Shown here piece by piece: positions 1 through 19,110 of a DNA stretch of 64,000 nucleotides (its first letter is position 1; the number at the start of each line of letters is the position of its first letter). This stretch comes from Mycobacterium sp. 3519A (GTDB lineage Bacteria; Actinomycetota; Actinomycetes; Mycobacteriales; Mycobacteriaceae): the NCBI RefSeq assembly GCF_900240945.1, contig NZ_OESG01000013.1:310001-374000 (forward strand), written 5' to 3'. The translations under genes and the position numbers were made by a program. The notes beneath the pieces are model-generated. The model ran no database searches. It saw nothing but the letters and a program-made list of their open reading frames with translations, and was not told the DNA's origin.

Positions 1-91
1 CCGCAGCGCTTCGGGTAGCGGCAGTCGTAGCGGTTTCCCGATTCGCCAGCGTGGGTAGCCTCGCGCCCTGTGCCAGGGTGGTCGTTCATCG

Positions 92-492
92 ATGTCCGAG
101 TACGAGTGGAAGGCGTGGGACGCCCTCGTCTCAGACGTAACGAGGAGATCGGCGGAGAACGGCCGATTGGGCAAATTCACCGAAGAGGGACGACCGAGCT
201 ACGCAACGAAGCACCGTCGGTAATGTGGTTGTGCCACTTGACAAGGCACGGGAATGGATTCGTGACTACACCGATACCACAGCGCCGTCGCCGCGGCCCG
301 GACGCCTACCCCGCGTCCGACAGGTACGGACAGAATCCGCAATGACCCACGAGTGCTCTCAGATGCCGACTTGCTCGCGCCGGGACTTCTGAATGTTCCC
401 GTAAAGATCCGGTCCTACTACGATCTGCAGCGGATCCGCCCTCAGCTGGAATCCGCTCTGGCCACTAGCGACCTGCAGTTTGCATCGGCCTG
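92..492 (+). pseudogene. Decayed coding remnants, unknown family
   Basis: Three coding-like stretches follow one another in different frames. A 43-codon frame opens at ATG 92 and stops at 221-223. A second runs about 215-330 and includes VPLDKAREWIRDYT. A third runs about 320-492 and includes SDADLLAPGLLNVPVKIRSY before a stop. Each has mycobacterial-looking composition but none is long enough to stand alone. I read this as one gene broken by frameshifts; the family is not recognised. Independent small ORFs remain possible. Confidence 0.3.
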
Positions 493-878
493 AAGTCGGA
501 CGACTCAGTCCGTATTGCGGCAATGGTTCAGCCCCTGTACACGGTTCTTGGCGACTCACCTCAAGCCGCGGAATGTCAACGCCACGACGCTGATCAAAAT
601 CTTGCCGCGTAAGCGCCCGCAATCCCTAGTCCTACACGATAGGTGGGTTAATGAGTGCAGCGTACATGCGGATGGTCCGATTCATCCTGCCAAGATCGGT
701 CATGGGCGGACTACATGACTGCTATCACCGTTGCGATTGGCAACGACATTCGGAGTCAACGTTTCGCGTTCGACGCGCTCGATGAAGCCACAAGCGCACC
801 TGGGTCTCTGTCCCACGTTCGACTACTTGACATCGTTGCGTGGACTTCCCGAGGCGGAGCGCGAAGTGCCAAAACCGG
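493..878. other. No intact gene; scattered coding-like fragments
   Basis: This stretch between the broken region and the first intact gene holds only short overlapping frames on the plus strand, for example one around 700-885 containing FAFDALDEATSAPGSL. No convincing start, ribosome site or family motif is visible. It is probably further decay debris at the edge of the accessory island. Confidence 0.3.
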
Positions 879-1286
879 CTATTGAGACCGTTTTCGAGGG
901 CGGGCGTAGAGATCGTGAATCTTTGCGACTTGGCTCGACCAGAACATCAGCTTGTCGTCGGATGTAGCGACATTTGAGAGTAGCCCGAGCTGAACCGCCA
1001 GGTTATAGAAGCCGGGTCCGGCATCGTTCCTGTCGATATACGCCACTATGGCTGAAAGCATGATGCCGGTGTCACCGATGGTGCGCTCCACAACATCGCC
1101 GAGCACTGCGCCAACAGCGTTGCGGTCGCTAGGCATCGAGAAATCGAAGGGCCGATGGCCGGCTTCAGCCAATGCATTGCTGACCTCGGAGTAGCTCGTA
1201 ATCAGACGCGCACGGGACTTCTCCTCTAAGAAAGCTTGGGTGGTAACGACGATGGCGTCCCACTCGTCGTCGCTTCGATCAAACAT
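879..1286 (-). CDS. Hypothetical protein (135 aa)
   Basis: The family is not recognised. The protein is mixed helical, without signal peptide, membrane segment or cysteine motif, and opens MFDRSDDEWDAIVVTTQAFL. It lies 57 bp downstream of, and on the same strand as, the 429-aa Gly/Ala-rich protein, so the two probably form an operon read away from the divergent helicase. A role as partner or regulator of that membrane protein is inference from position only. Confidence 0.6.
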   Translation of the reverse strand: MFDRSDDEWDAIVVTTQAFLEEKSRARLITSYSEVSNALAEAGHRPFDFSMPSDRNAVGAVLGDVVERTIGDTGIMLSAIVAYIDRNDAGPGFYNLAVQLGLLSNVATSDDKLMFWSSQVAKIHDLYARPRKRSQ

Positions 1287-1343
1287 GTTTCAGATCCTCA
1301 CGATCAAAGGGTCTGGGCACGCCGAGCGGGCTAATCCGGAAGT

Positions 1344-2633
1344 TCACGCCGTTATCGGTTCTGCCGGGAAGACTAGAACTGAACCGTTCGCGTTTTTCTC
1401 GATTTCGATCGCCACGTCAGGTTGATAGCCAGAATCGTTGACCTCGTCGCCCAGCGCACGAAGCCGGTAGGACGCGCGCAACAGATCGTCAACTTCGCCT
1501 TGCGTAAACATGACGCTTCGAATTCCGCCGTATCGCTTCAACTCCAGCGTTGATAGATGCCGGAGGACCGTTGTGATCCCGGATTCGAGCTCGTTTACTC
1601 GCTTCTCGTCTTCCTTCAAGGTCTCAATGAACCTCTTAAAGGGGTGGTTGGCTCCCTCAAGCTGTGCATGTTCCACGGCCTGCAATACGAGTACCCGCCT
1701 CTTAAGCGCAATCGCGAGCTTCGCGAGCTCAAGATGCGCTCGAAACTCTCCGCCAGTCTCCTCTGTAACACCGGGGAATGACTTCAGAACTGTCGCGAGT
1801 TCGGCTCGTGCGGGCATCTCAGACAAGCCTTGCTGCCACTTCCCAAGTCGGCGGATCGCCCGCTCGACGGCAACGTTGATCGCGTAGACAGTCGCATCGA
1901 GGCCGAGTGATGCGCCGACGCGTCCTTGGTCGAGGAGAATCGCTGTCGCCTTGGTAATTGCATCGCGGCACCCATCGAGCTGACTGCGCTCCTCGTCGAG
2001 CTTGTCCTCGTGCAGCTTCTCGAGTAATCCCGTGATGCGTTCAAGAGCTTGCTCGCGTCTATGATCGGCATACGCACTGGCGCCCGCCGCGACGGCCATT
2101 AACATTAGCGGCGCGGCAATGGTTAAGGCTCCGGCGCCGACTGCTGCGGCACCAGCGCTCGTCGCTGACCCAGCAACCGGCACGAACGTCGCCTGGGCAG
2201 CAATCCGGCCCCAGTTAACGAGCGCCCCGTGTACGCCACCGGCCGCGGCTTTCGACAACATAGGCTGCATCAGCCCCTTACCGACCTGAGCGGCGACCTT
2301 CGCGGGGACCACCATGCGATACAGCACTTCACCGGAAGCAGCGACATTCGCCACTGCAGACGATGACTTCGCTGACTGAGACATCAGCAGCGATAGGTTT
2401 TGGGCAAGGGGACTGGCTGCATCCAGCGGAATGCCGCCTGCCCGATTGCGTTTGGTGGATAGCGGGTGCGCTTCTAGAGTCGCAATGGGAGTGTCCGCGA
2501 GGGTAGCTAGAACCGTCCTAAGCTCGGCCAAGCGTTCCGGTGTCATGTTGGCCCCACAGGTGACGTCGGGCAGGTCCACTTGCTCGGTGGCCAGGGTCCA
2601 GACGGGCACTATGGGTGCGTCTTCAGCGGTCAT
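1344..2633 (-). CDS. Large protein with Gly/Ala-zipper hydrophobic core
   Basis: No known family is recognised. Residues about 155-189 form a Gly/Ala-rich hydrophobic stretch (SAGAAAVGAGAL, APLMLMAVAAGASAYA), the kind of glycine-zipper segment seen in membrane-inserting or pore-forming proteins. It is followed by a charged, probably coiled-coil helical region at about 190-380. There is no N-terminal signal peptide, so membrane insertion would be internal. The gene is divergent from the PLD-helicase with a 111-bp intergenic region and precedes a 135-aa gene. Its place at the front of a nuclease/helicase cluster suggests an effector or a conflict-system component. That is inference; a structural membrane role is equally possible. 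Confidence 0.6.
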   Translation of the reverse strand: MTAEDAPIVPVWTLATEQVDLPDVTCGANMTPERLAELRTVLATLADTPIATLEAHPLSTKRNRAGGIPLDAASPLAQNLSLLMSQSAKSSSAVANVAASGEVLYRMVVPAKVAAQVGKGLMQPMLSKAAAGGVHGALVNWGRIAAQATFVPVAGSATSAGAAAVGAGALTIAAPLMLMAVAAGASAYADHRREQALERITGLLEKLHEDKLDEERSQLDGCRDAITKATAILLDQGRVGASLGLDATVYAINVAVERAIRRLGKWQQGLSEMPARAELATVLKSFPGVTEETGGEFRAHLELAKLAIALKRRVLVLQAVEHAQLEGANHPFKRFIETLKEDEKRVNELESGITTVLRHLSTLELKRYGGIRSVMFTQGEVDDLLRASYRLRALGDEVNDSGYQPDVAIEIEKNANGSVLVFPAEPITA

Positions 2634-2731
2634 GATTCAGGATTTTCCCCTCCGTTGCACTCACCATAGGCGGCCCCAGGGACACGCGCCAGCAACTTCT
2701 ATTAGGAACTACTTTCGTCGCCTGCGTCGGC

Positions 2732-2737
2732 TATCGT
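2732..2737 (+). promoter_or_regulatory. -10 element TATCGT for the PLD-helicase (leaderless start)
   Basis: TATCGT lies seven bases before ATG 2745, so transcription would begin at or next to the start codon. No Shine-Dalgarno sequence precedes this ATG, which supports a leaderless mRNA. No clear -35 element is seen. Confidence 0.4.
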
Positions 2738-2744
2738 CCGCCCC

Positions 2745-5700
2745 ATGGAGTTAGGGGTGTACGAGTCGCTGTTGACCCAGAAGCTTTCTAGGACTCTGAC
2801 CGAAGTCGGTGGAATCCATCCGGAGTACCAGAGCGTCGACGATGCCGAGCAGCCGATCGCAGTCGCGCGGCATCTCGCTCCGATCATCGAACGCTCGATG
2901 CGGCTGGCGCGAACCGCTGATGACAGAGCAGAGCTGACCCGGCGGATTCTCGCCGTCCTGCCAGACATCGACAACGACGACGAGGCACTGGACTCGTACG
3001 AACCGGGCAAGATGACTCGCCTCGAGGAAGTACGGAGGGCCGGGGAGCTCGGCACGTCCCGGCTGCCTCGGCCGGCCACGCCCTTCTCTGATGCGGCGCT
3101 GATGACGAACGCCCGCAATGAGCCGACTCTGGCAGCCGAGCTGCGCGCCGAGATGGGCAGTGCCGACGAAGTGGATCTCCTCTGCGCTTTCGTTAAGTGG
3201 CAAGGACTTCGCCTCCTCGAAGGCCAACTCGAGGAGTTACATCGACGCGGCATCCCGCTGCGTGTGATTACAACCCACTATCTAGGTGCTACAGACGCAC
3301 GTGCTCTTGACGCTTTTGTTAATGAGTTCGGTGCCGACGTCAGGGTCAACTATGAGACCGATCGCACGCGTCTACACGCCAAAGCATGGCTTCTGCGCCG
3401 CAAGACCGGTTTTCACACTGCATACGTAGGTTCCAGCAACCTCTCCCACGCCGCGCTCGTAGACGGCCTTGAATGGAACGTGCGCCTCTCGGCAATCTCC
3501 ACTCCGCATTTACTCGAGAAGTTCCGCGCGACGTTCGATTCCTATTGGGAGAATCGCGAATTCGAGCCCTACGATCCCAGCCGAGATGGCGAGCGGCTGC
3601 GTGCGGCGCTTCAAACTGCCTCGGGCAATCGCACCAGCGACTGCGTGACGATCACACTCTCTGGCTTGGAGGTACATCCAAAGCCGTACCAGGCAGAGAT
3701 GCTTGAACAGCTCGATGCCGAGCGCACGATCCATGATCGGCATCGAAACCTTGTTGTCGCTGCGACGGGAACGGGTAAGACGGTGGTCGCGGCGCTCGAC
3801 TACCGAAGTCTTACGCGGGATGTGCACAACCGCGACCTCAAGTTGCTATTTGTCGCTCACCGCAAGGAGATACTTCAACAATCGCGGCGTATGTATCAAG
3901 AGGTGCTCACCGACGCGACTTTCGGTGAGATGTTGATCGACGGACGGGAACCAGTCCACTGGCGCCACGTCTTCGCCAGTATTCAGTCCTTGTCCGCACG
4001 CCGACTCGCAGAGATTGAGCCGAAGCACTTCGATGTCGTCGTGATCGACGAATTTCATCACGCGGAGGCAGCGTCGTATCGGCGACTGCTCGATCACGTG
4101 CAGCCCGTCGAACTCCTCGGGCTGACCGCAACACCCGAACGTGCTGACGGCGTTGATGTTCGAGAGTTCTTTGGCGGGCGTGTCGCCGCAGAGCTGCGCC
4201 TGTGGGAGGCACTGGAGCAGAATTTACTCTGCCCATTTCACTACTTCGGCATTCACGATGGCACAGATCTCGAGTCGGTTCAGTGGAGGCGCGGTGGGTA
4301 CGATCTCTCAGCGCTCAGCCAGGTCTACACCGGAAACGATGCGCGCACGCGGATAGTGCTGAAGAGCCTGAGGGACAAGTTGTCTGACGTCGAACAGATG
4401 CGAGCCTTTGGCTTCTGCGTAAGCGTCGAACACGCAAGGTATATGGCGCACCGGTTCGAAGAGGCCGGTATTCGCGCTCGCGCGGTCTCAGCCGAGACGT
4501 CGGCCCCCGACCGTCGCGACGCTTTGAACGCCTTGAGAAATCGTGAGATCAATGTTCTATTCGCTGTCGATCTCTTCAATGAAGGCCTCGATATCCCGGA
4601 GGTGGACACAGTTCTGTTTCTGCGTCCAACCGAAAGCGCGACCGTATTCCTCCAACAGTTGGGTCGCGGACTTCGACTCACCACAGGCAAGACTGTGTTA
4701 ACGGCCCTCGATTTCGTCGGCCATCAGCGCCGCGAGTTCCGCTTCGATCAGCGATTTCGCGCGATGACCGGTGTAGGCGGAAAGGCGTTGCAGCACCAAG
4801 TTGAAGAAGGCTTTCCGTTCCTGCCCTCGGGCAGCCAGATTGTCCTCGACCGGGTTGCGCAAGATCTGGTGCTGCAGAACATTCGACAACAAGTTGCACC
4901 GAGGTGGGCGGCGCTCATATCAGAGGTCCGTGCGCATCCGGACGACCAACTGGCGTCCTACCTCGAGACCTCCGGGCGCAACCTAGAGGACATCCTGCGC
5001 AATAACCGATCGTGGACGACGTTGTGTCGCGAAGCGGGGAAACCCCGCAGCGAACCTGGACCGCGTGAAAACGCATTGGCGAAGCGGGTTCGTGCGTTGG
5101 CACACGTCGATGATCCAACGCGTTGGAGGGCTTACCGCGCGCTCCTGGACGGCGATCTAGACCCCCGCACTGAGGCCGAGAAGAGGCTGGCGAGGATGCT
5201 GTTTTACTCGATCTTTCCTGACGCAGGTGGATTCGACGATCTCTATGACGGATTGGAAGCCATCCGACATGAAGCGGTCGCTGAAGAAATGCGTCAGGTG
5301 ATGGATATTGCGTTCGATAGCGCGAGGCGCACAACGTTCGGCTTGGGACAGTACGTCCCGGCACTTGCAGATGTGCCGCTGGAGCTCCACGCGAGTTACT
5401 CCCGCGAGGAGCTGCTTTCGGCACTTGACTTCGTCTCCTTGAGGCGCACGCCGAGCACTATGCGAGAGGGTGTCGCGTGGTGTGACGACGTTCAAGCTGA
5501 TGCCTTCCTCATCACATTGAAGAAGTCCGATCGTGACTACTCACCCACCACGATGTACCGCGACTTCGCGATAAGTCCCGAACTGTTTCATTGGGAATCG
5601 CAGTCAACCACGTCGTCAGCGTCACCTACCGGGCAGCGTTACATCAATCATCGTCAGAACGGTTCGCACATACTGCTTTTCGTACGGGCCGCGAAGACGA

Positions 5701-5846
5701 ATGCACTTGGCACGTGTCCGTACGTGTTTCTTGGACCCGCCTCCTATGTTTCACACGAAGGTGAGAAGCCGATGGCAGTTACATGGCGGCTGCACAAGCC
5801 CATGCCAACAGAGGTGTACCAGGCATCGACGGTGGCGGTTGCGTGA
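2745..5846 (+). CDS. PLD-nuclease / SF2 DEAD-like helicase / DUF3427 protein
   Basis: A 1033-aa multidomain enzyme. A phospholipase-D-like nuclease domain sits near residues 140-290, with HxK in LHAKAWLL at about 209 and VGSSNLS following. The SF2 helicase core has Walker A ATGTGKT near 340, a DEAH-like DEFHH box near 433, LTATPER, and motif VI GRGLR near 645. The C-terminal DUF3427 region has FHWESQSTTS and PYVFLGPASYVSH. Such PLD-helicase-DUF3427 proteins are common in defence islands and are thought to translocate on and cut foreign DNA. The next gene starts inside its stop codon (GTGA), so the two products are probably made together. The assignment of domains is secure; the defence role is inferred from family and context. 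Confidence 0.9.
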   Translation: MELGVYESLLTQKLSRTLTEVGGIHPEYQSVDDAEQPIAVARHLAPIIERSMRLARTADDRAELTRRILAVLPDIDNDDEALDSYEPGKMTRLEEVRRAGELGTSRLPRPATPFSDAALMTNARNEPTLAAELRAEMGSADEVDLLCAFVKWQGLRLLEGQLEELHRRGIPLRVITTHYLGATDARALDAFVNEFGADVRVNYETDRTRLHAKAWLLRRKTGFHTAYVGSSNLSHAALVDGLEWNVRLSAISTPHLLEKFRATFDSYWENREFEPYDPSRDGERLRAALQTASGNRTSDCVTITLSGLEVHPKPYQAEMLEQLDAERTIHDRHRNLVVAATGTGKTVVAALDYRSLTRDVHNRDLKLLFVAHRKEILQQSRRMYQEVLTDATFGEMLIDGREPVHWRHVFASIQSLSARRLAEIEPKHFDVVVIDEFHHAEAASYRRLLDHVQPVELLGLTATPERADGVDVREFFGGRVAAELRLWEALEQNLLCPFHYFGIHDGTDLESVQWRRGGYDLSALSQVYTGNDARTRIVLKSLRDKLSDVEQMRAFGFCVSVEHARYMAHRFEEAGIRARAVSAETSAPDRRDALNALRNREINVLFAVDLFNEGLDIPEVDTVLFLRPTESATVFLQQLGRGLRLTTGKTVLTALDFVGHQRREFRFDQRFRAMTGVGGKALQHQVEEGFPFLPSGSQIVLDRVAQDLVLQNIRQQVAPRWAALISEVRAHPDDQLASYLETSGRNLEDILRNNRSWTTLCREAGKPRSEPGPRENALAKRVRALAHVDDPTRWRAYRALLDGDLDPRTEAEKRLARMLFYSIFPDAGGFDDLYDGLEAIRHEAVAEEMRQVMDIAFDSARRTTFGLGQYVPALADVPLELHASYSREELLSALDFVSLRRTPSTMREGVAWCDDVQADAFLITLKKSDRDYSPTTMYRDFAISPELFHWESQSTTSSASPTGQRYINHRQNGSHILLFVRAAKTNALGTCPYVFLGPASYVSHEGEKPMAVTWRLHKPMPTEVYQASTVAVA

Positions 5847-6841
5847 GCGAAGACGCCAATGCGGACATCCTCTTGATCACCTGCGTCAAGTCGAAGGGAG
5901 CTCGACCATGCGCGGCGAAGGATCTCTACACGTCGGCACTCTTCAAAAAGCAGCGCGCGTACGCGGAGAAGGCCGGCGTTCCGTGGTTCATCCTTTCGGC
6001 AGAGCACGGTCTAGTCGCGCCGGACGAATGGCTGGCGCCCTACGAGCGCTACCTAGCCGATACTCCGGCTTCGTACCGAGCAGCATGGGGTTCCTGGATC
6101 GCTGCCAGGCTGGAGTTGCTTGCTGGTCCCTTGCAAGACAAGGTCGTTGAGATCCACGCCGGGGCAACGTATATCGATGCGGTTCGGCCTGAACTGGAGA
6201 AATTAGGAGCCCGGCTGGTCGATCCATTACGAGGCCTGCAGATGGGACATCGCCTGGCCTGGTACGGCGACATCGCTATCGAACCAGCTTCGCAAGTCGA
6301 CGCGGTTGATACGTGCGTGCAGGTGCTGCGTGACCCGTCCAAGGCCCTTTCACCAGAGGAGTTCACTGCCGCTGGCCGACCTGCATCTGATAAGCCCGGC
6401 TTATACAGCTGGTGGGTTGATCACAGCGGTGCGGACGCTCTGACTCGTGGCCTTGGATTAGAGGTCCAGCCCGGTCTGATCTACGCGGGTCTAGCTGGTG
6501 CCACGCGCTGGCCGAGCGGCATGCGATCAAACAACACGCTGTGGTTGCGCGTCATGACTATGCACCTCGGTGGGAATCACGAATTCTCAACGTTCCGTCG
6601 AACGCTCGGCGCAATCCTGGCCCACGCTCAAGGCTCGACGCATGTCGATGAGGATGCGCTTACGCAGTGGATGCACGCCCATCTACGGCTCGTAATTGTC
6701 CCTTACGACGACAGAGATGTGCTGGGGCGGCTCGAGCGCGATGTGCTGCTCGAACTTGACCCGCCACTGAATCTCCAGGGGATGCCTTCGACGCCTGTAC
6801 GCCTGCGACTCAAGGAACTACGGCGAGCCATCACAACTTAG
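5843..6841 (+). CDS. DUF6884 domain fused to GIY-YIG nuclease domain
   Basis: The N-terminal half (about residues 5-120) is a DUF6884 domain, with LLITCVKSKG, YTSALFKKQRAYAE and SAEHGLVAPD. DpdC, in the 7-deazaguanine DNA-modification cluster, carries this domain and acts on the preQ0 base. The C-terminal half is GIY-YIG-like: GLYSWWVD near 187, LIYAGLAG near 212, a conserved Arg in STFRRTL, and a Glu and Asn in LERDVLLELDPPLN. The GTG start at 5843 overlaps the helicase stop, giving translational coupling. The 3' end overlaps the convergent HNH gene by 4 bp. A modified-base sensor or editor tied to strand cleavage is inference; the nuclease fold could be degenerate. Confidence 0.8.
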   Translation: MSEDANADILLITCVKSKGARPCAAKDLYTSALFKKQRAYAEKAGVPWFILSAEHGLVAPDEWLAPYERYLADTPASYRAAWGSWIAARLELLAGPLQDKVVEIHAGATYIDAVRPELEKLGARLVDPLRGLQMGHRLAWYGDIAIEPASQVDAVDTCVQVLRDPSKALSPEEFTAAGRPASDKPGLYSWWVDHSGADALTRGLGLEVQPGLIYAGLAGATRWPSGMRSNNTLWLRVMTMHLGGNHEFSTFRRTLGAILAHAQGSTHVDEDALTQWMHAHLRLVIVPYDDRDVLGRLERDVLLELDPPLNLQGMPSTPVRLRLKELRRAITT

Positions 6842-7908
6842 AACCAGGACGGCGGAAAGCTGACGTCGAGACGCTCGGTCTGCCTATAGCCTGACCACGT
6901 CGGCACGCCGGCCGGCTGACCGCGGTAGATACCGCGTGCGGCTGCGGCTACCCGGTCGTGCTGCGTCGGCCACTGCAAGGACGATGCCAGCTGCTCCAAG
7001 GCTTCTTGATCACGGTGCAGCACTTGATCAACGAATCGCACCGCAGGCAATGCGCCGCTCTTGTCGCCGTTGCACCGTGCGCATGCGAGCACCAGATTCG
7101 ACAGTCCGTCGATGCCCACCAGCGACCACGGCAGCACGTGATCGATCGGGTTGTTCGCCGGCAGATGAGTACCGCAGTAAAAGCAATACGGCCCAAATTC
7201 TTCCTTGAACGGCTCGCGTACTGCCGTCAGCGCCGTGCGCTCCCGACCGAACAGGTGCCCAGCCACATCGGGTACCTCGGCATCGAGGAACTTGTTCATG
7301 CGGCGAACGTCTTCGACCCACATGATCTCCAGCGCAGGCTTCAGGAGACCGGCGAGGCGTGCCAGACCATGGGCGACTCCAGGCTTGAGTTCGATGGCAT
7401 CTCCGTGCGCACGAAGTGTTGATTGCGAAACATGGTCGTGGAGAAACGAGTCGTCGTACAAGAACGAATCGCTGGTCGAGGAGCCGGGCAGCTTTTGCAG
7501 CCGATACAACGGTTGTTGGGCCAGGCAAAGTACCACCTCGTCGACCGCGCTCAGATATGCCGCAGGTGCACGCACCTGCGCGGAATCGACGGATCTGGCG
7601 GCTCGGCCCGAGGCCACTCGCAATGCGTTCGTGGCGATGAGGATTCGTGCCCGCGGCTGCGTCGATTGCCGTAGCTCGTGGCCATCGAAGGGGCGAACTT
7701 GGCGCCAATAGACCTCCAGCACCCGATGCGCGAGCTCGGGCAGGAGCACCGGCAGCGGGTCCTCGGGTCGCTGGGGGAGGTGCTCGATGCAGTGCTCGAT
7801 GAGAGCCATCAGAGTCGCCAGCTTGTACGTCGCCGTCCGAAGGCCGGTCTCGAGAATCGCTACGACTCGCTGCCCGAGCAGTAGAGGGTCGAGGGCTTCA
7901 CTGCCCAT
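6838..7908 (-). CDS. HNH endonuclease family protein
   Basis: The C-terminal third contains an HNH/treble-clef nuclease: C242-x2-C245, the D256-H257 pair in PIDHVLPW, the N in GLSNLVLAC at 271, and C276/C279 followed by NGDKSG. The first 230 residues are helical and not recognised; they may bind DNA or a partner. The gene is divergent from the Rad50-like ATPase gene (149-bp gap), which recalls Septu, where an ATPase is paired with an HNH nuclease, although there the genes are co-directional. A GATAAT-like -10 lies in the shared intergenic region. The nuclease call is strong; linkage to either neighbour is inferred. Confidence 0.85.
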   Translation of the reverse strand: MGSEALDPLLLGQRVVAILETGLRTATYKLATLMALIEHCIEHLPQRPEDPLPVLLPELAHRVLEVYWRQVRPFDGHELRQSTQPRARILIATNALRVASGRAARSVDSAQVRAPAAYLSAVDEVVLCLAQQPLYRLQKLPGSSTSDSFLYDDSFLHDHVSQSTLRAHGDAIELKPGVAHGLARLAGLLKPALEIMWVEDVRRMNKFLDAEVPDVAGHLFGRERTALTAVREPFKEEFGPYCFYCGTHLPANNPIDHVLPWSLVGIDGLSNLVLACARCNGDKSGALPAVRFVDQVLHRDQEALEQLASSLQWPTQHDRVAAAARGIYRGQPAGVPTWSGYRQTERLDVSFPPSWF

Positions 7909-8057
7909 CGCAGACCTTGGGCCTCAGCGCTGACTGCACGATCGTATTATCGCGACTGATCGTCGTCGCCGGTAGCAATCTTGTGCGCGGTACTTGCCTG
8001 AGGAGCAAACTTCCAATCCGGGTGCCCGATGTCCGCCCGACGTTGTTCAATCGACAT

Positions 8058-10487
8058 ATGGCAGTCACAGATGAGTCCCTGTCGACGGGCGCCGATTCAA
8101 CAGAAACATCCGTGCATGACGTCATCCTGGAGATGCTCGAGAACGATGCAGGGCTGAACGCCGAGGTCAAGGAAGCCGTGCTCGAGGCGCTCGCCGAGGT
8201 CGTCGGTGAGACGCAGGACGACACAGGCGCGCAGACTGCATCGACCTTTCTGACAAAGATCTCGGTCGTCGGATTCCGCGGTATCGGGCCCCAGGCCGAG
8301 CTTGATCTCTATCCCGCTCCGGGACTCATGGTCATCAGCGGACGCAATGGATCGGGCAAATCGAGTTTCGCCGAGGCGCTGGAGCTCGCCCTGACTGGAA
8401 CCAGCTACCGTTGGCACGAGAAGAAGTCGACGCTTTGGACCGAATCCTGGCGGAACCTGCACCACACCAATCCGTGTGCCATTCGCGTCGGTTTCACCGC
8501 TGAGGGCCTCGGGTCTTTTACGGTCGGCGTGAACTGGGCAGACGAGGCCGAGCTCACTCACCGGACGACCTGGACGCAGACTGGTACTGACAAGCATGTC
8601 GACGGAACCGGCCATCTGGGGTGGTCACGGCCCCTCGAATTGTGGCGACCTGTGCTTTCCTACGACGAGCTGGGCCGGCTCTTTGACGGCGGTCCTTCGG
8701 CGCTGTATGACGCACTCGCGAAGCTACTTGGACTCGATTCCTTGGCTGAGGCCGAGAAAGGGCTTGCCACGCAACTGAAGTCAACCAAGCTCGCCCGCGA
8801 GAAAGCCGACGACGAACGCAAACGCCTCCTCGACGTGCTGTCCGATTCCGCCGATGAGCGTGCCCAGCAGGCCATCGTGCTGCTTCGTAAGAGGGGCGGC
8901 GCGTCGATGGACGACCTGCTGGCGCTCGCCACTGGGTCAGACGAGACCGGACTGCGGGTGACCGCGACGCTGCGAGCACTGACCCAGCTCGAGACTCCGA
9001 CGATTGGCGCGATCGAAGCAGCCGCCTCGCGGTTACGCACTGCAATCCAAACCGTGGTCGAACGGGGCGGCGAACTCGTTGACGGCAGCCGTCAGCGCGT
9101 CGATCTCCTACAGGCCGCCCTTCGGTTCCACGAGCATGCTGGCGACCGCGACTGCCCTGTGTGCGGACAGGGCAGTCTGGACGACGACTGGGCCGCGCGC
9201 ACCCGCGATGCCGTCGCTGCTTCTGAAGAGTCGCTTATGGAGTTCCGCACTGCGACAGGCGAACTCGACCAGGCGCGGTCCGCGGCCGTTGCTCTGATTG
9301 CCGCTCTCAAGACTGCAGATTGCATATCGGAAGTAGAGCTGTCCGGACTTGCGGGTTATAACGACGCCGTCGCTACGGCGCGACAGACTCCGGAGGATGA
9401 CACGGCCCTGGCCGCTCACGTGGAGTCGACGCTCGTCGCGGCCGCCGTGTCAGCCGACACACTGCGCGCTCAAGCCGCCGAAGCCCTGACGTCGCGAGAG
9501 AGTGCTTGGGCGCCGCTCGCCGCCCAGCTCGGCGGCTGGGTGCCTATGGAGGAAGAAGCTCGAGTGCTCGACGCGACGGTGAAAACAATGACGGCGGCCA
9601 AGAAGTGGATGTCCGACCATGCCGGTCAGTTCCGAAATCTGCGGTTGGAACCCATTGCAGTACAAGCGCGAGAGATCTGGAGCCAGCTGCGTCAGGAGAG
9701 CAATGTCGATCTTGGGGAGATCACCCTGGAGGGCACGGCAACCCGTCGGCGAGCGACCCTGGGGGGATCGGTGGACGGGCAGCCCACCAAGGCGTTGTCG
9801 GTGATGAGCCAAGGGGAGAAGCATGCACTCGCGCTCGCGCTGTTTCTACCGCGTGCCACGGCTCCGGCCAGTCCGTTCCGATTCGTCGTTCTCGACGATC
9901 CGATTCAGGCAATGGACCCCGCCAAGATCGACGGGTTCGTCCAGGTGCTTTCCGGGATCGCCCGCACCCACCAGGTCATCGTGTTCTCTCACGATGATCG
10001 GTTGGCTTCAGTGATCAGGGAGACCGGTACGGACGCCAGACTCATCGAAGTGGTGCGGGAGTCAGGGTCCAAGGTGACGATCCGCGACAACGTCAACCCC
10101 GCGTTGCGGGCCGTGAATGACATCTTCGCGCTGATCAAGGACGACCGCCTGCCCGACGACATCAGAGCGAGGGTACTGCCGGGCCTGTGTCGCGTGGCAG
10201 TGGAATCGGCTGCGAAGCAAGCGTTTTACACGAAGCAGTCCATAGCAGGGCGACCTCGTGCGGATTCTGAGAACGCTTGGATGTCGGCTAAGAAGACGTT
10301 GTCGCGGCTGGCGCTTGCGGTACATGGCGACCCGAGTGCAGACCTCAAGGGCTGGCTCGACGGCAGACCTGAACGCCGGCCGACTCTGCGCCTGTGCAAC
10401 GCGGTCCACGACGAAGCCCGCGGCGTCTCGATGAGGGAGGCGCGAGAGCTCGAGCGGACGGTGCAAGCGGTGTTGGCGTTGCGATGA
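8058..10487 (+). CDS. Rad50/SMC-like AAA ATPase with zinc-hook motif
   Basis: An 809-aa ATPase. Walker A GRNGSGKS is at residues 95-102. A long helical region follows, interrupted by CPVCGQG near 365, a CxxC like the Rad50 zinc hook. A signature-like VMSQGEKHALALAL, Walker B FVVLDDP near 610 and a switch histidine in VIVFSHDDRL near 640 complete the ABC-type head. An extra helical domain of about 130 residues follows the head. I start at ATG 8058; GTG 8022 in frame is an alternative and neither has a good ribosome site. The stop overlaps the next gene's start (ATGA), implying a coupled partner. ATP-driven DNA sensing that controls an effector is the usual role of such proteins in defence systems; here it is inferred. 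Confidence 0.85.
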   Translation: MAVTDESLSTGADSTETSVHDVILEMLENDAGLNAEVKEAVLEALAEVVGETQDDTGAQTASTFLTKISVVGFRGIGPQAELDLYPAPGLMVISGRNGSGKSSFAEALELALTGTSYRWHEKKSTLWTESWRNLHHTNPCAIRVGFTAEGLGSFTVGVNWADEAELTHRTTWTQTGTDKHVDGTGHLGWSRPLELWRPVLSYDELGRLFDGGPSALYDALAKLLGLDSLAEAEKGLATQLKSTKLAREKADDERKRLLDVLSDSADERAQQAIVLLRKRGGASMDDLLALATGSDETGLRVTATLRALTQLETPTIGAIEAAASRLRTAIQTVVERGGELVDGSRQRVDLLQAALRFHEHAGDRDCPVCGQGSLDDDWAARTRDAVAASEESLMEFRTATGELDQARSAAVALIAALKTADCISEVELSGLAGYNDAVATARQTPEDDTALAAHVESTLVAAAVSADTLRAQAAEALTSRESAWAPLAAQLGGWVPMEEEARVLDATVKTMTAAKKWMSDHAGQFRNLRLEPIAVQAREIWSQLRQESNVDLGEITLEGTATRRRATLGGSVDGQPTKALSVMSQGEKHALALALFLPRATAPASPFRFVVLDDPIQAMDPAKIDGFVQVLSGIARTHQVIVFSHDDRLASVIRETGTDARLIEVVRESGSKVTIRDNVNPALRAVNDIFALIKDDRLPDDIRARVLPGLCRVAVESAAKQAFYTKQSIAGRPRADSENAWMSAKKTLSRLALAVHGDPSADLKGWLDGRPERRPTLRLCNAVHDEARGVSMREARELERTVQAVLALR

Positions 10488-10831
10488 GTGCTATCGAACT
10501 CCTGAGTCAGGCCCAGCGGATCCTGACTGCTCGCGGCACCGGCGGATCGTCGTCCCGTATGGCGGCGTTTCTCGCACGCCGCGCGCTGGAGGAGATCGTC
10601 GAGCAACGCTGCGTCAGCCTCGGAGCGTCGGCACCTCGGGCCACGACGCGCAGCAAGCTGTTGATTCTGCGGGCACTCGACACTGCGGGCGCAGCCAACC
10701 GCGCCGCCTTCGCGTGGAACCGGCTGAGCAATGCCTGCCATCTGCATGCATTCGAAATGCAGCCCTCAACAGCGGAAGTCGAGCAGTTGTGCGGTGTGGT
10801 TGCTGGACTACTGCCGTCTACAGGGATTTAG
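10484..10831 (+). CDS. Small helical HEPN-like protein (115 aa)
   Basis: ATG 10484 lies inside the stop of the ATPase gene (ATGA), so the two are translationally coupled. The protein is all-helical. It carries an R80-x5-H86 motif in WNRLSNACH, which fits the R-x4-6-H signature of HEPN ribonucleases, within a pattern resembling HEPN-like domains appended to defence ATPases. It has no membrane segment. I propose it as the effector or toxin partner of the Rad50-like ATPase. The motif is short and the fold is not proven, so a purely structural helper remains possible. Confidence 0.65.
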   Translation: MSAIELLSQAQRILTARGTGGSSSRMAAFLARRALEEIVEQRCVSLGASAPRATTRSKLLILRALDTAGAANRAAFAWNRLSNACHLHAFEMQPSTAEVEQLCGVVAGLLPSTGI

Positions 10832-10845
10832 CCAACAATCAATCT

Positions 10846-11769
10846 ATGACCGCTACGCCGTTGGAAGACATACATCTGCCGCCACAGGCCGTCGCCCAGC
10901 TGAGGGATACCGAAGCTGCGGAGTGGATCGATAATCACACCATCGAGGTCCGTCGCAGTTGGTGGACAACGACCCTTGAGGAGCATGGTTTCGATGACAC
11001 CCTGGTCGGCGACACCATCAGCCGCGCGGAAATCTTTGCGCTTTCCGGGCCTGCTGCCGAGAGTCCCGATGCAGCCTTGACCCTGTTATGGAACTCGCTC
11101 GCGTGGGGTAGCGGCAGTAAGCGGCGAAAGAACCGTGCCCGAATCGCATCTGTCGCCCGAAATCGCGAAACCGCCACGGCATTACTGCAACAAGCAGCTC
11201 GTTGTAGCCGTCGCGACCCCGGCGAGGCATACAGTTTGTTGTATCCGGACAACCGCACAGCGATACGTCAACTGGGTCCAGCCTTCTTCACCAAGTACCT
11301 CTACTTCGCTGGTGGTGGTTCCTCCGACCACCAATGTTGCATCCTCGACGAGAACGTCGCCCTAGCGCTACAGAAGACATGCGGATGGCATTCGCTCCCT
11401 AGTCGGAGTTGGTTGGCGACCGCCTACGCGCGCTATGCGGTGCTCTTGGGGCGCTGGGTCAACGAGCACGAATTGGATCGGCCAGATGTCATCGAGCGAT
11501 GGCTCTTCGAAGAGGGTAAGCGCTTGCGAATGACCGCATCCACGGTCAGCCCCAAGCCAGCCAGAATTGCTGACGCAGTTCCAGCGGTTGAGCCCGCAGA
11601 GCCTGACGGGACATGCTTCTGCGGTTGCGGTGAGGCGACAAGTGACGGCAAGTTCTTCGTGACGTCGCACGATCGCCGGGCCGAGTCTCGCGCAATCCGC
11701 GAGAGATTCGGCGACATTGCGACGTTCGTTGCTTGGTCGGAGAAGCACCTACCAAGGATCGGTGGTTAA
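10846..11769 (+). CDS. 8-oxoguanine glycosylase (OGG)-fold protein with Cys/His tail
   Basis: 307 residues from ATG 10846, 14 bp after the previous gene. The central region fits the actinobacterial OGG-fold family: LLWNSLAWGSG near 80-90, then LGPAFFTKYLYFAG at 143-156, where K150 lies where a bifunctional glycosylase has its catalytic lysine, and D168 in CILDENVAL as the candidate catalytic aspartate. A C-terminal cluster, CFCGCGE at 257-263 followed by SHDRR, looks metal-binding. Members of the wider class remove damaged or modified bases. With nucleases and a DUF6884 protein close by, excision of modified phage bases is plausible but inferred. Co-direction with the ATPase/HEPN pair suggests one operon. 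Confidence 0.7.
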   Translation: MTATPLEDIHLPPQAVAQLRDTEAAEWIDNHTIEVRRSWWTTTLEEHGFDDTLVGDTISRAEIFALSGPAAESPDAALTLLWNSLAWGSGSKRRKNRARIASVARNRETATALLQQAARCSRRDPGEAYSLLYPDNRTAIRQLGPAFFTKYLYFAGGGSSDHQCCILDENVALALQKTCGWHSLPSRSWLATAYARYAVLLGRWVNEHELDRPDVIERWLFEEGKRLRMTASTVSPKPARIADAVPAVEPAEPDGTCFCGCGEATSDGKFFVTSHDRRAESRAIRERFGDIATFVAWSEKHLPRIGG

Positions 11770-11810
11770 GTGTTCATCAAGCGTGCAATCGCATGTCGAG
11801 GGAGTCTGGG

Positions 11811-12263
11811 CTACAGGCACTCGCCGTTGTGGACCATGAAGCACTTTTCGCACCGCTGCTCAGGCTTCTCCTGGCGCGGGTGGTCGTTTGCACCGAGGCG
11901 GACATTGCCTAGCGGGGTCAACTTGACGGACGGATCGAGCTGCTGCAGTTGAGTCAATCGGGTGATGGTGTGCTGACGAAGCTCAGGCGACCGCGGGTAG
12001 TTCAGTAGCTCCCGGTACAGCCCAGCCTGCATCTCGGCTTCCGATGGTGTCGCGAGCTCTCCAGCGAGCGAAAGACGCACGATTCTGCGCACTTCGGCGA
12101 TCCTCTCGAGGTTCACTGGCTCACCGTCTGCCGCTGCTGCCGCGACCATCTCGGCGTCGGTGAGGTTCCTCTTCATACCGTTGAGGACCTTGGCGTAGCG
12201 GGTGCGCTGGTGACTAAGGAGAATCTGCTCGATCTCTGTACGGAATGGATACTGGTCGGCCAT
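11811..12263 (-). CDS. Hypothetical protein with C-terminal Cys motif
   Basis: 150 residues from ATG 12263; an in-frame GTG at 12314 would add 17 residues. The body is helical and charged. It ends CEKCFMVHNGEC, a compact Cys-x2-Cys...Cys arrangement that may bind zinc. The family is not recognised. It converges on the OGG-fold gene (42-bp gap) and is divergent from the DUF6998 gene, still inside the defence-like island. Confidence 0.6.
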   Translation of the reverse strand: MADQYPFRTEIEQILLSHQRTRYAKVLNGMKRNLTDAEMVAAAAADGEPVNLERIAEVRRIVRLSLAGELATPSEAEMQAGLYRELLNYPRSPELRQHTITRLTQLQQLDPSVKLTPLGNVRLGANDHPRQEKPEQRCEKCFMVHNGECL

Positions 12264-12583
12264 CACGTCCAGTATGCGGGCGCGGGCCTGGTCCCGGGGT
12301 CGAAGCAACGACACTATTGAACCGATTCTTCGTGCGCGTCAGTTTACGGTTCGCGTTGACTCCAGCTCGACTCCTTCGACCGCGGGCCCTCGCGAACAGC
12401 CTTGTCGCCACGCTTCTGGATCAAACAGTTCCGCAGACTAACCACACTGCACGGCAAGCGGGTTCGCAAGAACTGCGAGGCGTCCCCACACACGCCCGGT
12501 TTGCCACTTAACCGCGGTTAACTCCGGTACCGAACTTGACTGTAAAGGGGTCGTCGAATCACCTTCTGTGCAACGGTCGTGCT

Positions 12584-13135
12584 GTGGACGAACAAGACGA
12601 CACAGAACTCAAAGAACTCGGCGCGTTGCTTCGAGAACGAAACGCTCTTGACGCCCGCATCGGCCGCCTGCTGGACCGCCCGGTGAACACCGGAAGCATT
12701 GGCGAATGGATCGCAGCACGGATCTTCGAAATCGAGCTGGAAACCGCCGCGAACACCGCCGGTTACGACGGACGCTTTACCACGGGTGAGCTTGCCGGTC
12801 GAACGGTCAACGTCAAAGCGTATACGAAACACGAAAGCGTTCTGGACATCAATCCGAGTGCTCCACTGGACTATTACCTCGTTCTCACCGGTGCACCATC
12901 AGCCCTCGCGTCGTCGCGGGGTACCTTGCGCCCGTTCTGTATTCAGACCGTATTCCTACTGGACGCGCACCGATTGCATGCCGAGCTGAAGGACCGAGGC
13001 GTGAAGATCGGCATAGCGACGAGCGTGCTTAAGACTCAGTGGGAGGCAGCCGAAGTGTTTCCGCGTTCCACCAATCCACTCCTTGTTCTCACAGAGGCGC
13101 AACGTCGTCAGCTTGAGATATTCGCCTGCGACTGA
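12584..13135 (+). CDS. DUF6998-type protein
   Basis: 183 residues from GTG 12584; the frame stays open upstream to a TTG at 12536. It matches what I know of DUF6998: an N-terminal helix with NTGSIGEWIAARIF, a central GRTVNVKAYTK strand-helix, LDYYLVLTG, and the C-terminal RGVKIGIATSV and QRRQLEIF. Proteins of this type occur beside restriction-like genes, and the VNVKAY segment resembles the core of a PD-(D/E)XK fold, but I see no complete catalytic set. It closes the island; 13136-13309 downstream contains no gene I can support. Confidence 0.6.
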   Translation: MDEQDDTELKELGALLRERNALDARIGRLLDRPVNTGSIGEWIAARIFEIELETAANTAGYDGRFTTGELAGRTVNVKAYTKHESVLDINPSAPLDYYLVLTGAPSALASSRGTLRPFCIQTVFLLDAHRLHAELKDRGVKIGIATSVLKTQWEAAEVFPRSTNPLLVLTEAQRRQLEIFACD

Positions 13136-13309
13136 AGTCCGAGTTCTAGCTGGAACCGCTTCAAAAACGTGTTCATTAGCTAGGAGACCGTCCACTGCCG
13201 TCATCAAAAGGTATCGAGTAACCGCCAAAATCTTGCGCAGCAGGGATACCCAACGCAACGTCGTCGCCCGCGTTCTGGCCAACGAAAGCCGCTGCCAACG
13301 CGCTGAGCC

Positions 13310-13951
13310 CTAGCCGTCCGCGACGTCGGCGCGTTGCTCGCCGGAGTAACCGTCCATGACGGCGTCAGGGTTCTCGATCCTGGCGGCGCGGTGCCGGCTG
13401 ATGTTGGCCGATGTCATGGCCATGACGTCGCGGGCTTTCCCCCTGCCGAAGGTCACCGACTTGTCGTGCTGCACTCCGAGGCGGACCCCGACTTCGACGG
13501 CGTCCTGGTCGGCGCCCATGTAGAGAAACTCCCAGCCGTTTTTGGTCTGCTGCTGGACGAGACTCTTGACGGCCGGGTGCGTCCACTCTTGACTCGAATT
13601 CTCATAGCCGTCGGTCATGATCGCGACAATCACCGTGCCCGGGCGCTCGGCCTCCGGCGCCGCGTCAAGCTGTGCCGCCGTATCGGTGATCAGCTTGCCC
13701 ATCGCGTCCAGCAGCGCCGTGCCACCGCGCGGCTGCAGGTTCAGCGCAGGAACCTCCCCGACCGGGATCTGGTGATAGACGACCTCGTACTGGGTATCAA
13801 ACTGGGCCAGCGTCGCGGCGCACTCACCGGGCGCCTGGCGTTGTTCATCGATGAACGCGGCGAATCCACCTTCGACGTCAGACTTGATGGACTGCATCGA
13901 CCCCGAACGGTCGAGCAGAAACACGAGCAGGGTGCGATCGGAGTTCGACAT
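13310..13951 (-). CDS. von Willebrand factor A domain protein
   Basis: 213 residues, a single vWA domain. The MIDAS metal site begins D14-x-S16-x-S18 (LLDRSGSM), with a Thr in GGTALLDAM and an Asp in IMTDGYEN as the remaining ligands. There is no signal peptide, so it acts in the cytoplasm, probably as an adaptor. It lies 16 bp downstream of the small HTH-like gene in one operon. Small bacterial vWA proteins of this sort are found in tellurium-resistance-like and stress operons; its partner here is unknown. Confidence 0.85.
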   Translation of the reverse strand: MSNSDRTLLVFLLDRSGSMQSIKSDVEGGFAAFIDEQRQAPGECAATLAQFDTQYEVVYHQIPVGEVPALNLQPRGGTALLDAMGKLITDTAAQLDAAPEAERPGTVIVAIMTDGYENSSQEWTHPAVKSLVQQQTKNGWEFLYMGADQDAVEVGVRLGVQHDKSVTFGRGKARDVMAMTSANISRHRAARIENPDAVMDGYSGEQRADVADG

Positions 13952-13967
13952 GGTTTGGCCCTTTCGG

Positions 13968-14342
13968 TCAGGCGGTAGGTCGGCGGCGTTTGAACTGCAT
14001 GGGCTTGGCGTCGGGCGGCGGCGCGGGCGGTGGTGCGATCCCGGTCTCCTTGTCGTACCGGGCGCGCGTCACACCTTTGGCGTTGACCCGACCGTCGGCG
14101 GCGTAGCCACCCAGCTTCGCCGTGGTGGCCAGGCGCGGGCCAATCGCGTTCTCGGTCAGCCCAACCTTCTCCGCCGCTGCGCGAAGCGACAGCTCCGCGT
14201 CGACGACGGCGTCGGCCAGTGTCTCGTCGATCAGCCCGCCAACGTCGTCGAGCACCGCGCGAAGGTGCGTGAGTGCCGTTGCCGGGTCAGCCTTTTCGGC
14301 CCTGGCAAGCTCGGATCGGATGCGTGTGTAGCGATTGGACAC
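13968..14342 (-). CDS. Small HTH-like protein, candidate autoregulator
   Basis: 124 residues from GTG 14342. The middle contains SLRAAAEKVGLTENAIGPRL, which has the spacing of a helix-turn-helix (alanine in helix 1, glycine in the turn). The tail is Pro-rich and then basic (MQFKRRRPTA). The GTG is preceded by TATGGT five bases upstream, consistent with a leaderless transcript. Three palindromes sit immediately upstream, between this gene and the divergent zinc-ribbon/serpin-like gene, so this protein may bind them. That link is inference. The vWA gene follows in the same operon. Confidence 0.65.
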   Translation of the reverse strand: MSNRYTRIRSELARAEKADPATALTHLRAVLDDVGGLIDETLADAVVDAELSLRAAAEKVGLTENAIGPRLATTAKLGGYAADGRVNAKGVTRARYDKETGIAPPPAPPPDAKPMQFKRRRPTA

Positions 14343-14346
14343 ACCG

Positions 14347-14352
14347 CACCAT
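14347..14352 (-). promoter_or_regulatory. -10 element TATGGT for the HTH-vWA operon
   Basis: On the minus strand TATGGT is followed by five bases and then the GTG at 14342, as expected of a leaderless start. It abuts the first of the three palindromes (14355-14367), so a bound repressor would block it. Confidence 0.4.
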
Positions 14353-14354
14353 AC

Positions 14355-14401
14355 CGCAGAAACTGCGGATACGCAATACATGCGGGTTCGCACGATATGC
14401 G
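14355..14401. promoter_or_regulatory. Three CGCA-N5-TGCG palindromes spaced 17 bp apart
   Basis: CGCAGAAACTGCG (14355-14367), CGCAATACATGCG (14372-14384) and CGCACGATATGCG (14389-14401) all match CGCA-N5-TGCG. Their starts are exactly 17 bp apart. They fill the space between two divergent leaderless promoters (-10 elements at 14347-14352 and 14425-14430). The conserved arms with variable centres indicate a dimeric DNA-binding protein occupying tandem sites. The HTH-like product of the adjacent gene is the obvious candidate. Confidence 0.75.
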
Positions 14402-14424
14402 GCCCGCTTGTCGGTGGGGCGAGG

Positions 14425-14430
14425 TATCTT
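14425..14430 (+). promoter_or_regulatory. -10 element TATCTT for the zinc-ribbon/serpin-like gene
   Basis: TATCTT lies seven bases before ATG 14438 and no ribosome site precedes that ATG, so the mRNA is probably leaderless. The expected -35 region falls just at the end of the third palindrome (14389-14401). Confidence 0.45.
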
Positions 14431-14437
14431 GCCGGCC

Positions 14438-15757: not shown

Positions 15758-15797
15758 GGCAGTGCCGGCGAGGCGCCTAGAACGCACGAATTCAACT

Positions 15798-15821
15798 GCG
15801 GTGCAGATGGCTTCGCACCGC
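15798..15821. terminator. Hairpin between convergent genes
   Basis: GCGGTGC (15798-15804) and GCACCGC (15815-15821) form a perfect 7-bp stem with a 10-base loop between the ends of the convergent genes at 15757 and 15841. No U-tract follows, as is usual for mycobacterial hairpins. Confidence 0.4.
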
Positions 15822-15840
15822 TAACGCCGCTTCGGATTGA

Positions 15841-16227
15841 TTACGGCTGGCCTGCCTCGCGGCGAGAATCCTTCGCGCGCAGCTCGGTTGCAACTTTTCG
15901 GCCTGCTTCAGTCAGGCCCAGCCATATGGAATAGTCCCACGATGCCGGATCGTCATAGTGGCTGACGAAGCGTTCATGTAGGCGGTTCATGGCCACGTCG
16001 ATCGGTTCCCACGCGGGAAATGTCTCTTCCGGTCCGGGTAACTCGCCGATCTGCATCAGGCCGTCCTCGAGTAATGAGCGGATGGTCCTGACGGTTAGTT
16101 CCGTGCGCGCTTCATCGCTCTCGGCGAGCTGGAAGTGCGAAATAATCTGCTGCGTCTCGGCGAGTGAGACCCAATCAGATAATCCGCTGGTCAGTAGCTC
16201 TGTGCGGAGCCGCCCGTCCTTTGTCAT
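15841..16227 (-). CDS. Hypothetical protein, GLTE-motif family
   Basis: 128 residues, helical, beginning MTKDGRLRTELLTSGL. Near the C-terminus it has SWDYSIWLGLTEAGRK, preceded by HERFVSHYDD. The tail of a decayed relative lies directly upstream (16231-16420), so this is one of a local gene family. No catalytic residues are evident. Small proteins of this kind often sit next to polymorphic toxins as immunity proteins, which is a guess here. Confidence 0.6.
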   Translation of the reverse strand: MTKDGRLRTELLTSGLSDWVSLAETQQIISHFQLAESDEARTELTVRTIRSLLEDGLMQIGELPGPEETFPAWEPIDVAMNRLHERFVSHYDDPASWDYSIWLGLTEAGRKVATELRAKDSRREAGQP

Positions 16228-17128: not shown

Positions 17129-17132
17129 CGTG

Positions 17133-18662: not shown

Positions 18663-18668
18663 TGGATG

Positions 18669-18980
18669 TCAGCTGACGTCGCGTCCGGCTGAACGCAGCG
18701 CCGAACCGCTTGTCTCGTCCTGCTTGGTGAACACGGCGGCAGCGGAGGTGGCCTTTTGGGCTAGTGAGTCGAAGTCCGCGCGATGGCCCTGCAAAGTGGT
18801 GACGTGGTGATCGTGCGCTTGGGATAAGGCGTGGTGAAACGCGTGGGCAGTTTCAAAATCGCCGAAAATGCCTGCTGACGGCTGCGTCGACGCGAGCCTG
18901 TCGGCCCCGCGTTGGGCGATAGCGCCCGCACTCTGTGAAAAATCTGCTCCCATACGCAGCAAATCGGTATCGACGAACAT
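18669..18980 (-). CDS. DUF2563 family protein, copy A
   Basis: 103 residues beginning MFVDTDLLRMGADF, the typical DUF2563 opening, and containing SAGIFGDFETAHAFHHAL and a C-terminal ETSGSALR. DUF2563 proteins are small helical mycobacterial proteins of WXG100-like size encoded beside ESX-type effectors, probably as partners or chaperones. ATG 18980 is preceded by AAGGGGT as ribosome site and a TATAAT -10. It leads the three-gene block. Confidence 0.85.
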   Translation of the reverse strand: MFVDTDLLRMGADFSQSAGAIAQRGADRLASTQPSAGIFGDFETAHAFHHALSQAHDHHVTTLQGHRADFDSLAQKATSAAAVFTKQDETSGSALRSAGRDVS

Positions 18981-19005
18981 CAGACCCCTTGAATCGTTGA
19001 TGACA

Positions 19006-19011: not shown

Positions 19012-19110
19012 TGGAGGGTCGTCGGTCGCACGACGCACGAACTTGGGCCGTCGTCGCCGAGGAGATATGGACCGGCTCGAAACGCCTGCATTCATGGTGA
19101 CGCCGTACCG

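Follow-up and report, generated by a model that had tools for sequence, protein, structure and literature searches.

A DUF6884-GIY-YIG nuclease fusion overlapping a SauUSI-type restriction gene in a conserved mycobacterial cassette

The window analysed here is a 64,000-nucleotide (nt) stretch of the 7.3 Mb, 14-contig genome of Mycobacterium sp. 3519A (contig NZ_OESG01000013.1, positions 310,001 to 374,000). Two overlapping genes on its positive strand encode a putative SauUSI-type type IV restriction enzyme (gene 1, 2745..5846; 1033 aa) and a protein joining a DUF6884 domain to a GIY-YIG nuclease domain (gene 2, 5843..6841; 332 aa), and they are followed by a convergent HNH endonuclease gene (6838..7908, negative strand). 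Genes 1 and 2 were present as open reading frames (ORFs), as listed in a first-pass annotation of the window, which had not included the HNH gene. With moderate confidence, the fusion is interpreted as a stand-alone modification- or lesion-dependent endonuclease and gene 1 as an ordinary SauUSI-type enzyme, the two forming with the HNH gene one moving restriction cassette. Loci are designated L and genomes G below, the window genome being G000.

Gene 1 carries, in this order, the Pfam domains PLDc_2 (residues 161-268, 3225..3548; E 7.4e-8), ResIII (E 9.1e-35) and Helicase_C (E 2.3e-14), the latter two making up a superfamily 2 (SF2) helicase-like ATPase (residues 310-645, 3672..4679), and DUF3427, the putative target-recognition part (residues 875-1026, 5367..5822; E 5.4e-21). 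This bears out the architecture of phospholipase D (PLD) nuclease, SF2 helicase and DUF3427 first proposed for it. The PLD domain contains the HxK motif of the SauUSI type (HAK at residue 211) and the ATPase retains Walker motifs (GTGKT at 342, DEFHH at 435). Residues 109-1029 match the PADLOC model mREase_IV (PDLC03659) with 1126.6 bits, and the whole sequence matches the crystal structure of SauUSI (PDB 7clg) with an E-value of 8.7e-84, the best stretch being residues 119-665. SauUSI, a type IV enzyme dependent on 5-methylcytosine (5mC) or 5-hydroxymethylcytosine (5hmC), has a PLD domain, an SF2 ATPase and a C-terminal DUF3427/target-recognition domain (TRD) in the order seen in gene 1, where the TRD is a putative one; gene 1 differs in having approximately 90 extra N-terminal residues, such that its residue 119 corresponds to residue 31 of 7clg. 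By its sequence, gene 1 is related to SauUSI, an enzyme described as restricting modified DNA, reading 5mC and 5hmC with an SRA-fold domain and translocating (PMC7913695). The TRD itself is matched weakly, in a second local alignment of gene 1 residues 920-1004 with 7clg residues 839-919, the DUF3427 match spanning profile positions 123-277 of 280. A single SauUSI polypeptide, acting as a homodimer, is reported to be enough for activity (PMC7913695, PMC3874153); therefore, a partner is not a prerequisite for gene 1. Another pairing of both nuclease kinds was observed at L108:9039-9677 (G292), where a GIY_YIG_2 gene without DUF6884 lies directly 5′ of a SauUSI-type gene.

The product of gene 2 is a DUF6884 domain (residues 9-141, 5867..6265; Pfam E 1.5e-45) followed by a GIY-YIG nuclease domain (residues 186-328, 6398..6826; GIY_YIG_2 E 1.7e-14), the same two domains as read in the first-pass annotation. 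The first domain has the features of the DUF6884/YaaA superfamily, namely CxxxK (C14/K18), LSAxxG (S52/G56) and a predicted YaaA fold, and the second holds the predicted catalytic Tyr, Tyr, Arg, Glu and Asn of GIY-YIG enzymes (Y188, Y214, R236, E298 and N310, with H241); these active-site residues are conserved among relatives. No solved relative was found by sequence at E ≤ 1. The AlphaFold2 model of the fusion has a mean pLDDT of 92.8, and a Foldseek search of the PDB with this model placed YaaA first (E 1.1e-3, with no match at or under 0.001); no GIY-YIG enzyme was among the 50 rows listed, the GIY-YIG match coming in a second look by VIA-align. A homologue search in which 8000 candidates were scored returned 1376 homologues at E ≤ 1e-3, and 119 of the top-ranking 120 combine a DpdC-type fold with a nuclease. 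Longer relatives carry an additional N-terminal domain of approximately 100 residues (DUF7662 or DUF7669), with a predicted order of helices and strands that would fit a winged helix, a suggestion made from secondary structure alone, and the fold search did not reach this domain; the window protein has seven residues before DUF6884. The PADLOC candidate PDC-M57A matches the DUF6884 part of the fusion (E 8.3e-29), its model of 138 positions spanning that part alone. A partial literature search found no description of a DUF6884-GIY-YIG fusion, which may exist in the remaining papers, and no mention of PDC-M57, DUF7662 or DUF7669.

DUF6884 is described by the Pfam authors as distant kin of YaaA with CxxxK and LSAxxG motifs (PMC11701544). 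According to the same source, its member YfjM was identified as one of the proteins that interact with abasic or ribonucleotide lesions, and a base is flipped into the pocket in an AlphaFold3 model. The relationship to DpdC that had been suggested for this domain was recovered by hhalign, in which the fusion family aligned to a family of 34 DpdC-like proteins with a probability of 92.5 and an E-value of 5e-7, inside the DUF6884 part. These 34 are homologues of one protein with a strong DpdC-model match, at L113; the model matches seven of 396 genomes of the phylum, L113 being the one strong match, and a reading of the ORFs there, which were not named by any tool, suggests that L113 lies within a dpd cluster. 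DpdC and the fusion thus share a DUF6884/YaaA-type domain, homologous by profile, with CxxxK and SAxxGL in common, whereas DpdC-like proteins are approximately 310 residues long without a nuclease and the fusion has a nuclease attached.

The start of gene 2 overlaps the stop of gene 1 in the sequence GTGA (5843..5846, positive strand), and the 4-bp overlap is kept in four of four cassettes, as ATGA at the equivalent site in L061, L064 and L136, which agrees with the earlier view of the two genes as a unit. Because of this conservation, GTG at 5843 is likely the start codon, rather than the upstream in-frame ATG at 5783. The conserved block of 5.2 kb begins just 5′ of gene 1 and runs as far as the HNH gene start (Pfam HNH E 1.6e-8), aligning at 72.8-72.9% nt identity to L064 (window positions 2714..7890) and L061 (window positions 2726-7890); the rest of window positions 1-16000 gave no alignment to either locus at E 1e-10. 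The ratios of nonsynonymous to synonymous divergence (dN/dS, NG86) were 0.04-0.14 for the three cassette genes (0.06-0.09 for the HNH gene) in the nine of ten comparisons giving a ratio, the fusion against L062 giving none, and are rough because dS was 1.4-3.8, near or past saturation. At the level of sequence, these values show that the cassette genes are under purifying selection and are not chance ORFs.

A search of 316 genomes of the genus returned ten matches at E ≤ 1e-30, five of which have both domains of the fusion (G000, G926, G765, G172 and G696). The genus is common to the window genome, Mycobacterium sp. 1164985.4 and M. xanthum Y57, with the G765 stretch identical to L064 and G172 holding the L062 contig; G696 holds the L063 sequence, and the cassette of the window recurs in G926 (L136, a short locus that stops within gene 1). 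The cassette is common to four genomes, all with the 4-bp overlap. In a sample of 298 genomes of the order, the whole fusion was found in five (G000, G172, G085, G241 and G134) and a SauUSI-type match at E ≤ 1e-180, a few of them split or partial, in 73. Both were found in three genomes, adjacent in G000 only and approximately 7 kb and 33 kb apart in G085 and G241, respectively. A general partnership of PLD-helicase and fusion was therefore rejected, with G000 the only one of the 73 to have them adjacent, and the pairing was found in one mycobacterial lineage only, a restriction that the first-pass annotation had not noted. The HNH family (E ≤ 1e-15) occurs in 17 of the 298 genomes, lying within approximately 11 kb of a SauUSI-type gene in five (G000, G195, G210, G148 and G089); its relatives stand beside the fusion in L061, L062, L064 and L136, and in L101 beside SauUSI without the fusion. 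The HNH gene as a fixed partner of SauUSI was only partly borne out; it is also a convergent neighbour of other genes. The GC content is 59-61% for window positions 1-2700, gene 1 and gene 2 and 63-65% for the measured downstream stretches, which would fit transfer, and three Rhodococcus plasmids carry the fusion.

The wider neighbourhood of the fusion was surveyed in 40 loci obtained by scanning contigs with two exact peptide patterns, a lower bound because the patterns were exact. DUF6884 was recovered by profile hidden Markov model in 36 of these, L096, L097, L099 and L100 having GIY-YIG only, and L073, L092 and L098 appear interrupted. Neighbours were called with a simple script that did not call gene 2 of the window or the fusions of L073, L097 and L098, giving 36 loci with an upstream and 37 with a downstream neighbour (GIY-only L096, L099 and L100 included); 70 of the 73 neighbour proteins (at least 60 aa) were scanned. 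The upstream gene is on the same strand in 20 loci, within 50 bp in 13 of them, and divergent in 16. Close upstream partners include SauUSI-type genes (L061 and L064), NERD-UvrD helicases (L087-L090 and L093), a PDC-S53 protein (L075), a gene clustering with TrwC relaxases (L076) and a DUF429-RusA gene (L086), the remainder being L063, with no Pfam match, L078 and L099. The most frequent domains among the 70 neighbours were ResIII, Helicase_C and AAA_19 (seven each), followed by RTasNERD-Hel (five), TrwC (four), PDDEXK_13, HNH and the DrmD model PDLC02621 (three each) and GmrSD_N (two). Because of these tallies and the varied upstream genes, the fusion is considered to be without a fixed partner and often to lie beside defence and mobile-element genes. 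The first-pass interpretation stands in its domains, gene unit, active sites, DpdC homology and nearby defence genes, and not in a general tie of the fusion to a translocating PLD-helicase, most loci having another or no close upstream partner; its proposal that the pair would recognise modified phage DNA is an inference. The observations named there as refuting it were not made, since defence genes do adjoin relatives of the fusion and the active-site residues are kept.

Several further genes were observed in these neighbourhoods. The DUF429 gene of L086 (8425-9696; PADLOC PDC-S44), with a weak RusA match at the family cut-off, lies 4 bp 5′ of the fusion, and a single ORF at L070:6984-9476, 5′ of a DUF6884-GIY gene, combines a PbeA-like SF2 helicase with sigma-70 regions 1.2, 2 and 4. 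Downstream in the window (7917-10831, positive strand), a gene for an SMC-like ATPase, with a probable start at 8022, precedes a small gene that overlaps it; L063 (Mycobacterium sp. ENV421) and L086 (Kineosporia) have the same pair close to their fusion genes. The window also has an OGG-like family gene (10714-11769, positive strand; PF21790, E 2.9e-53), a relative of which is found near the fusion in L094. Two diverged copies of a 2.6-kb repeat, with two genes each, occur at 16434-19048 and 44433-47047 (79% nt identity over 2.6 kb, same orientation, 28 kb apart) and, judged by layout, are perhaps an insertion sequence.

It is unlikely that the fusion serves in repair or base conversion, with DUF6884 as a glycosylase- or DpdC-like hydrolase whose substrate is a damaged or unusual base, the GIY-YIG domain nicking the product in the manner of UvrC, and the defence neighbours incidental. 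The patchy spread of the gene, with both domains in five of 316 genus genomes and the fusion in five of 298 order genomes, counts against such a role because wider occurrence across a genus is to be expected of a repair gene, as do its presence on Rhodococcus plasmids and neighbours that include restriction, DISARM-type and relaxase genes.

A low probability is likewise given to a two-component machine, in which the fusion would belong to the SauUSI-type enzyme as a subunit and supply its translocating dimer with a second reader and nuclease. The conserved 4-bp overlap would suit such a machine, as would the similar coupling to another nuclease-helicase, NERD-UvrD, by a 4-bp overlap in L087, L088 and L089 and with the genes 8 and 10 bp apart in L090 and L093. 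In a tree, which left out 11 of the 40 loci (L073, L084, L091, L092 and L094-L100), the NERD-helicase-coupled fusions form one clade (100/100), far apart from the SauUSI-coupled members (window, L061 and L064). The latter fall in a five-row set (100/100; the others, P0006 and P0016, have no locus in the data) inside a 12-row group (100/95) lacking the N-terminal domain of the longer relatives, a further feature favouring such a machine. However, short forms also occur without SauUSI (L062 and L063), and both genes occur in sub-cassettes without the other: M. xanthum Y57 (L062 and L106) has the fusion and HNH genes in a draft genome (taken as G172 from an identical contig) with no SauUSI-type match (best E 1.1e-8), and G195 (L101) has SauUSI and HNH genes without the fusion. 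The reported activity of the lone SauUSI homodimer likewise argues against a required second subunit. Least probable is that the genes are chance neighbours in a defence island and the overlap mere compaction, as the many different neighbours of fusion genes and the single lineage with the pairing could suggest, since three genes are kept as a block with no alignment outside it to L061 or L064 and the overlap is kept as well.

Type IV enzymes reading modified cytosine, N6-methyladenine (6mA) or phosphorothioate are known (PMC3874153), and single-chain enzymes combining a GIY-YIG nuclease with a sensor are already among them. CMoRE (PD-T4-3), a GIY-YIG type IV enzyme reported to cut DNA containing 5hmC or its glucosylated form, 5ghmC (PMC12923530), resembles the fusion in joining the nuclease and a separate second domain in one chain; in CMoRE, the nuclease comes first, with a GIYxY-YIG motif and a sensor without known relatives, whereas in the fusion the order is reversed, DUF6884 comes first and the motif is GLYSW. 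With W190 in place of the extra Tyr of CMoRE, two residues after Y188, and a C-terminal nuclease, the window fusion was ruled out as a CMoRE. The winged-helix (wH)-GIY-YIG endonucleases Ahi29725I and Apa233I, described as reading 6mA (PMC11037411), share with the fusion an N-terminal reader and C-terminal GIY-YIG domain, and the predicted N-terminal domain of the long fusion forms would fit theirs; the window fusion has no such domain and begins with DUF6884, and was ruled out as a member of that group. The simplest reading is that the fusion would be a third kind of single-chain GIY-YIG type IV enzyme, with a YaaA-fold reader.

A more specific possibility, to which a low probability is given, is that the family is a restriction enzyme cutting 7-deazaguanine DNA (2′-deoxy-7-cyano-7-deazaguanosine, dPreQ0, and its kin), with a DpdC-type fold for handling the 7-cyano group joined to a nuclease. 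We know of no answer to the question of whether bacteria have enzymes attacking such DNA. This reading is attractive in view of the DpdC homology, two viral neighbourhoods, a host without QueC, a dPreQ0-rich mycobacteriophage and a hunt for enzymes acting on such DNA in which, in the part of the report consulted, none was identified (PMC5567051). DpdC is reported to hydrolyse dPreQ0 to 2′-deoxy-7-amido-7-deazaguanosine (dADG) (PMC12839542), dADG in S. Montevideo needs dpdC (PMC11888242), and in mycobacteriophage Rosebush approximately 28% of G is present as dPreQ0 (PMC6884629). QueC, matched in 12 of 14 genomes as a control, had no match in the window genome, consistent with the earlier suggestion that the host need not make the modification itself. 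The DpdC model likewise had no match in this genome, and no Dpd gene was found by Pfam or PADLOC among the ten neighbouring proteins scanned; in these searches, the set required by a Dpd system (DpdA, DpdB and a preQ0 supply with DpdC) was not found. The genome does have one strong match to tRNA-guanine transglycosylase (TGT) on another contig (G000:C14:1393166-1394329), despite the lack of a QueC match.

Among 50,697 phage records, 16 match the window fusion, all within the DUF6884 part, and a second query adds Listeria and Streptomyces records. As none of the 16 covers 80% of the query and no relative was confirmed in viral_contigs (15 pattern matches), a phage origin of the fusion was rejected. 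All seven aligned sequences (six viral proteins and the window domain) retain the DUF6884 motif residues C, K, S and G. Neighbours were taken from annotation in eight of nine viral lineages, the short Listeria records being left out, and in two of the eight a DUF6884-only gene adjoins an annotated 7-deazaguanine gene. In Halorubrum tailed virus 29 (HRTV-29; L143:6995-8120), it overlaps a gene annotated as DpdA, an annotation not confirmed by Pfam or PHROGs. In Fusobacterium phage phiFN37 (L149:5188-7015), it is flanked by a TGT, an identity that PHROG 887 confirmed, and by a queosine precursor transporter; in a search of seven phage records, this TGT had no match outside its own record, and it is matched by only 163 of the 50,697 records, which qualifies its support. 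The other six lineages have no 7-deazaguanine gene annotated near DUF6884, many genes there being unnamed. Weighing against a 7-deazaguanine target, lesions, as with YfjM, and other modifications suit the fusion equally well.

If the fusion is a stand-alone modification- or lesion-dependent endonuclease, DUF6884 would act as a sensor rather than an enzyme, binding DNA through its YaaA fold and taking an altered base from the helix into its conserved pocket of Cys, Lys and Ser, after which the attached GIY-YIG domain would cut the DNA close to that base. Gene 1 would sense modified cytosine with its C-terminal domain, translocate by means of ATP and cut with its PLD domain. Together with the convergent HNH gene, gene 1 and the fusion gene may have been joined, within a single mycobacterial lineage, into a horizontally moving cassette, with overlapping reading frames, whose proteins would act side by side on foreign modified DNA, thereby checking invading DNA for more than one kind of modification. 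Such a cassette would show the stacking of stand-alone modification-dependent enzymes, and the function of DUF6884 could be tested through the fusion, in which the attached nuclease is a built-in read-out. For phage 9g, whose DNA contains 2′-deoxyarchaeosine (dG+), one of 22 E. coli extracts is reported to have cut this DNA more than lambda DNA, the available part of that report naming no enzyme and posing the existence of a host enzyme against dG+ DNA as a question (PMC5567051). If the 7-deazaguanine reading is true, the fusion family would be a host enzyme of the kind asked about for this related base, with phages such as Rosebush as its targets in mycobacteria.

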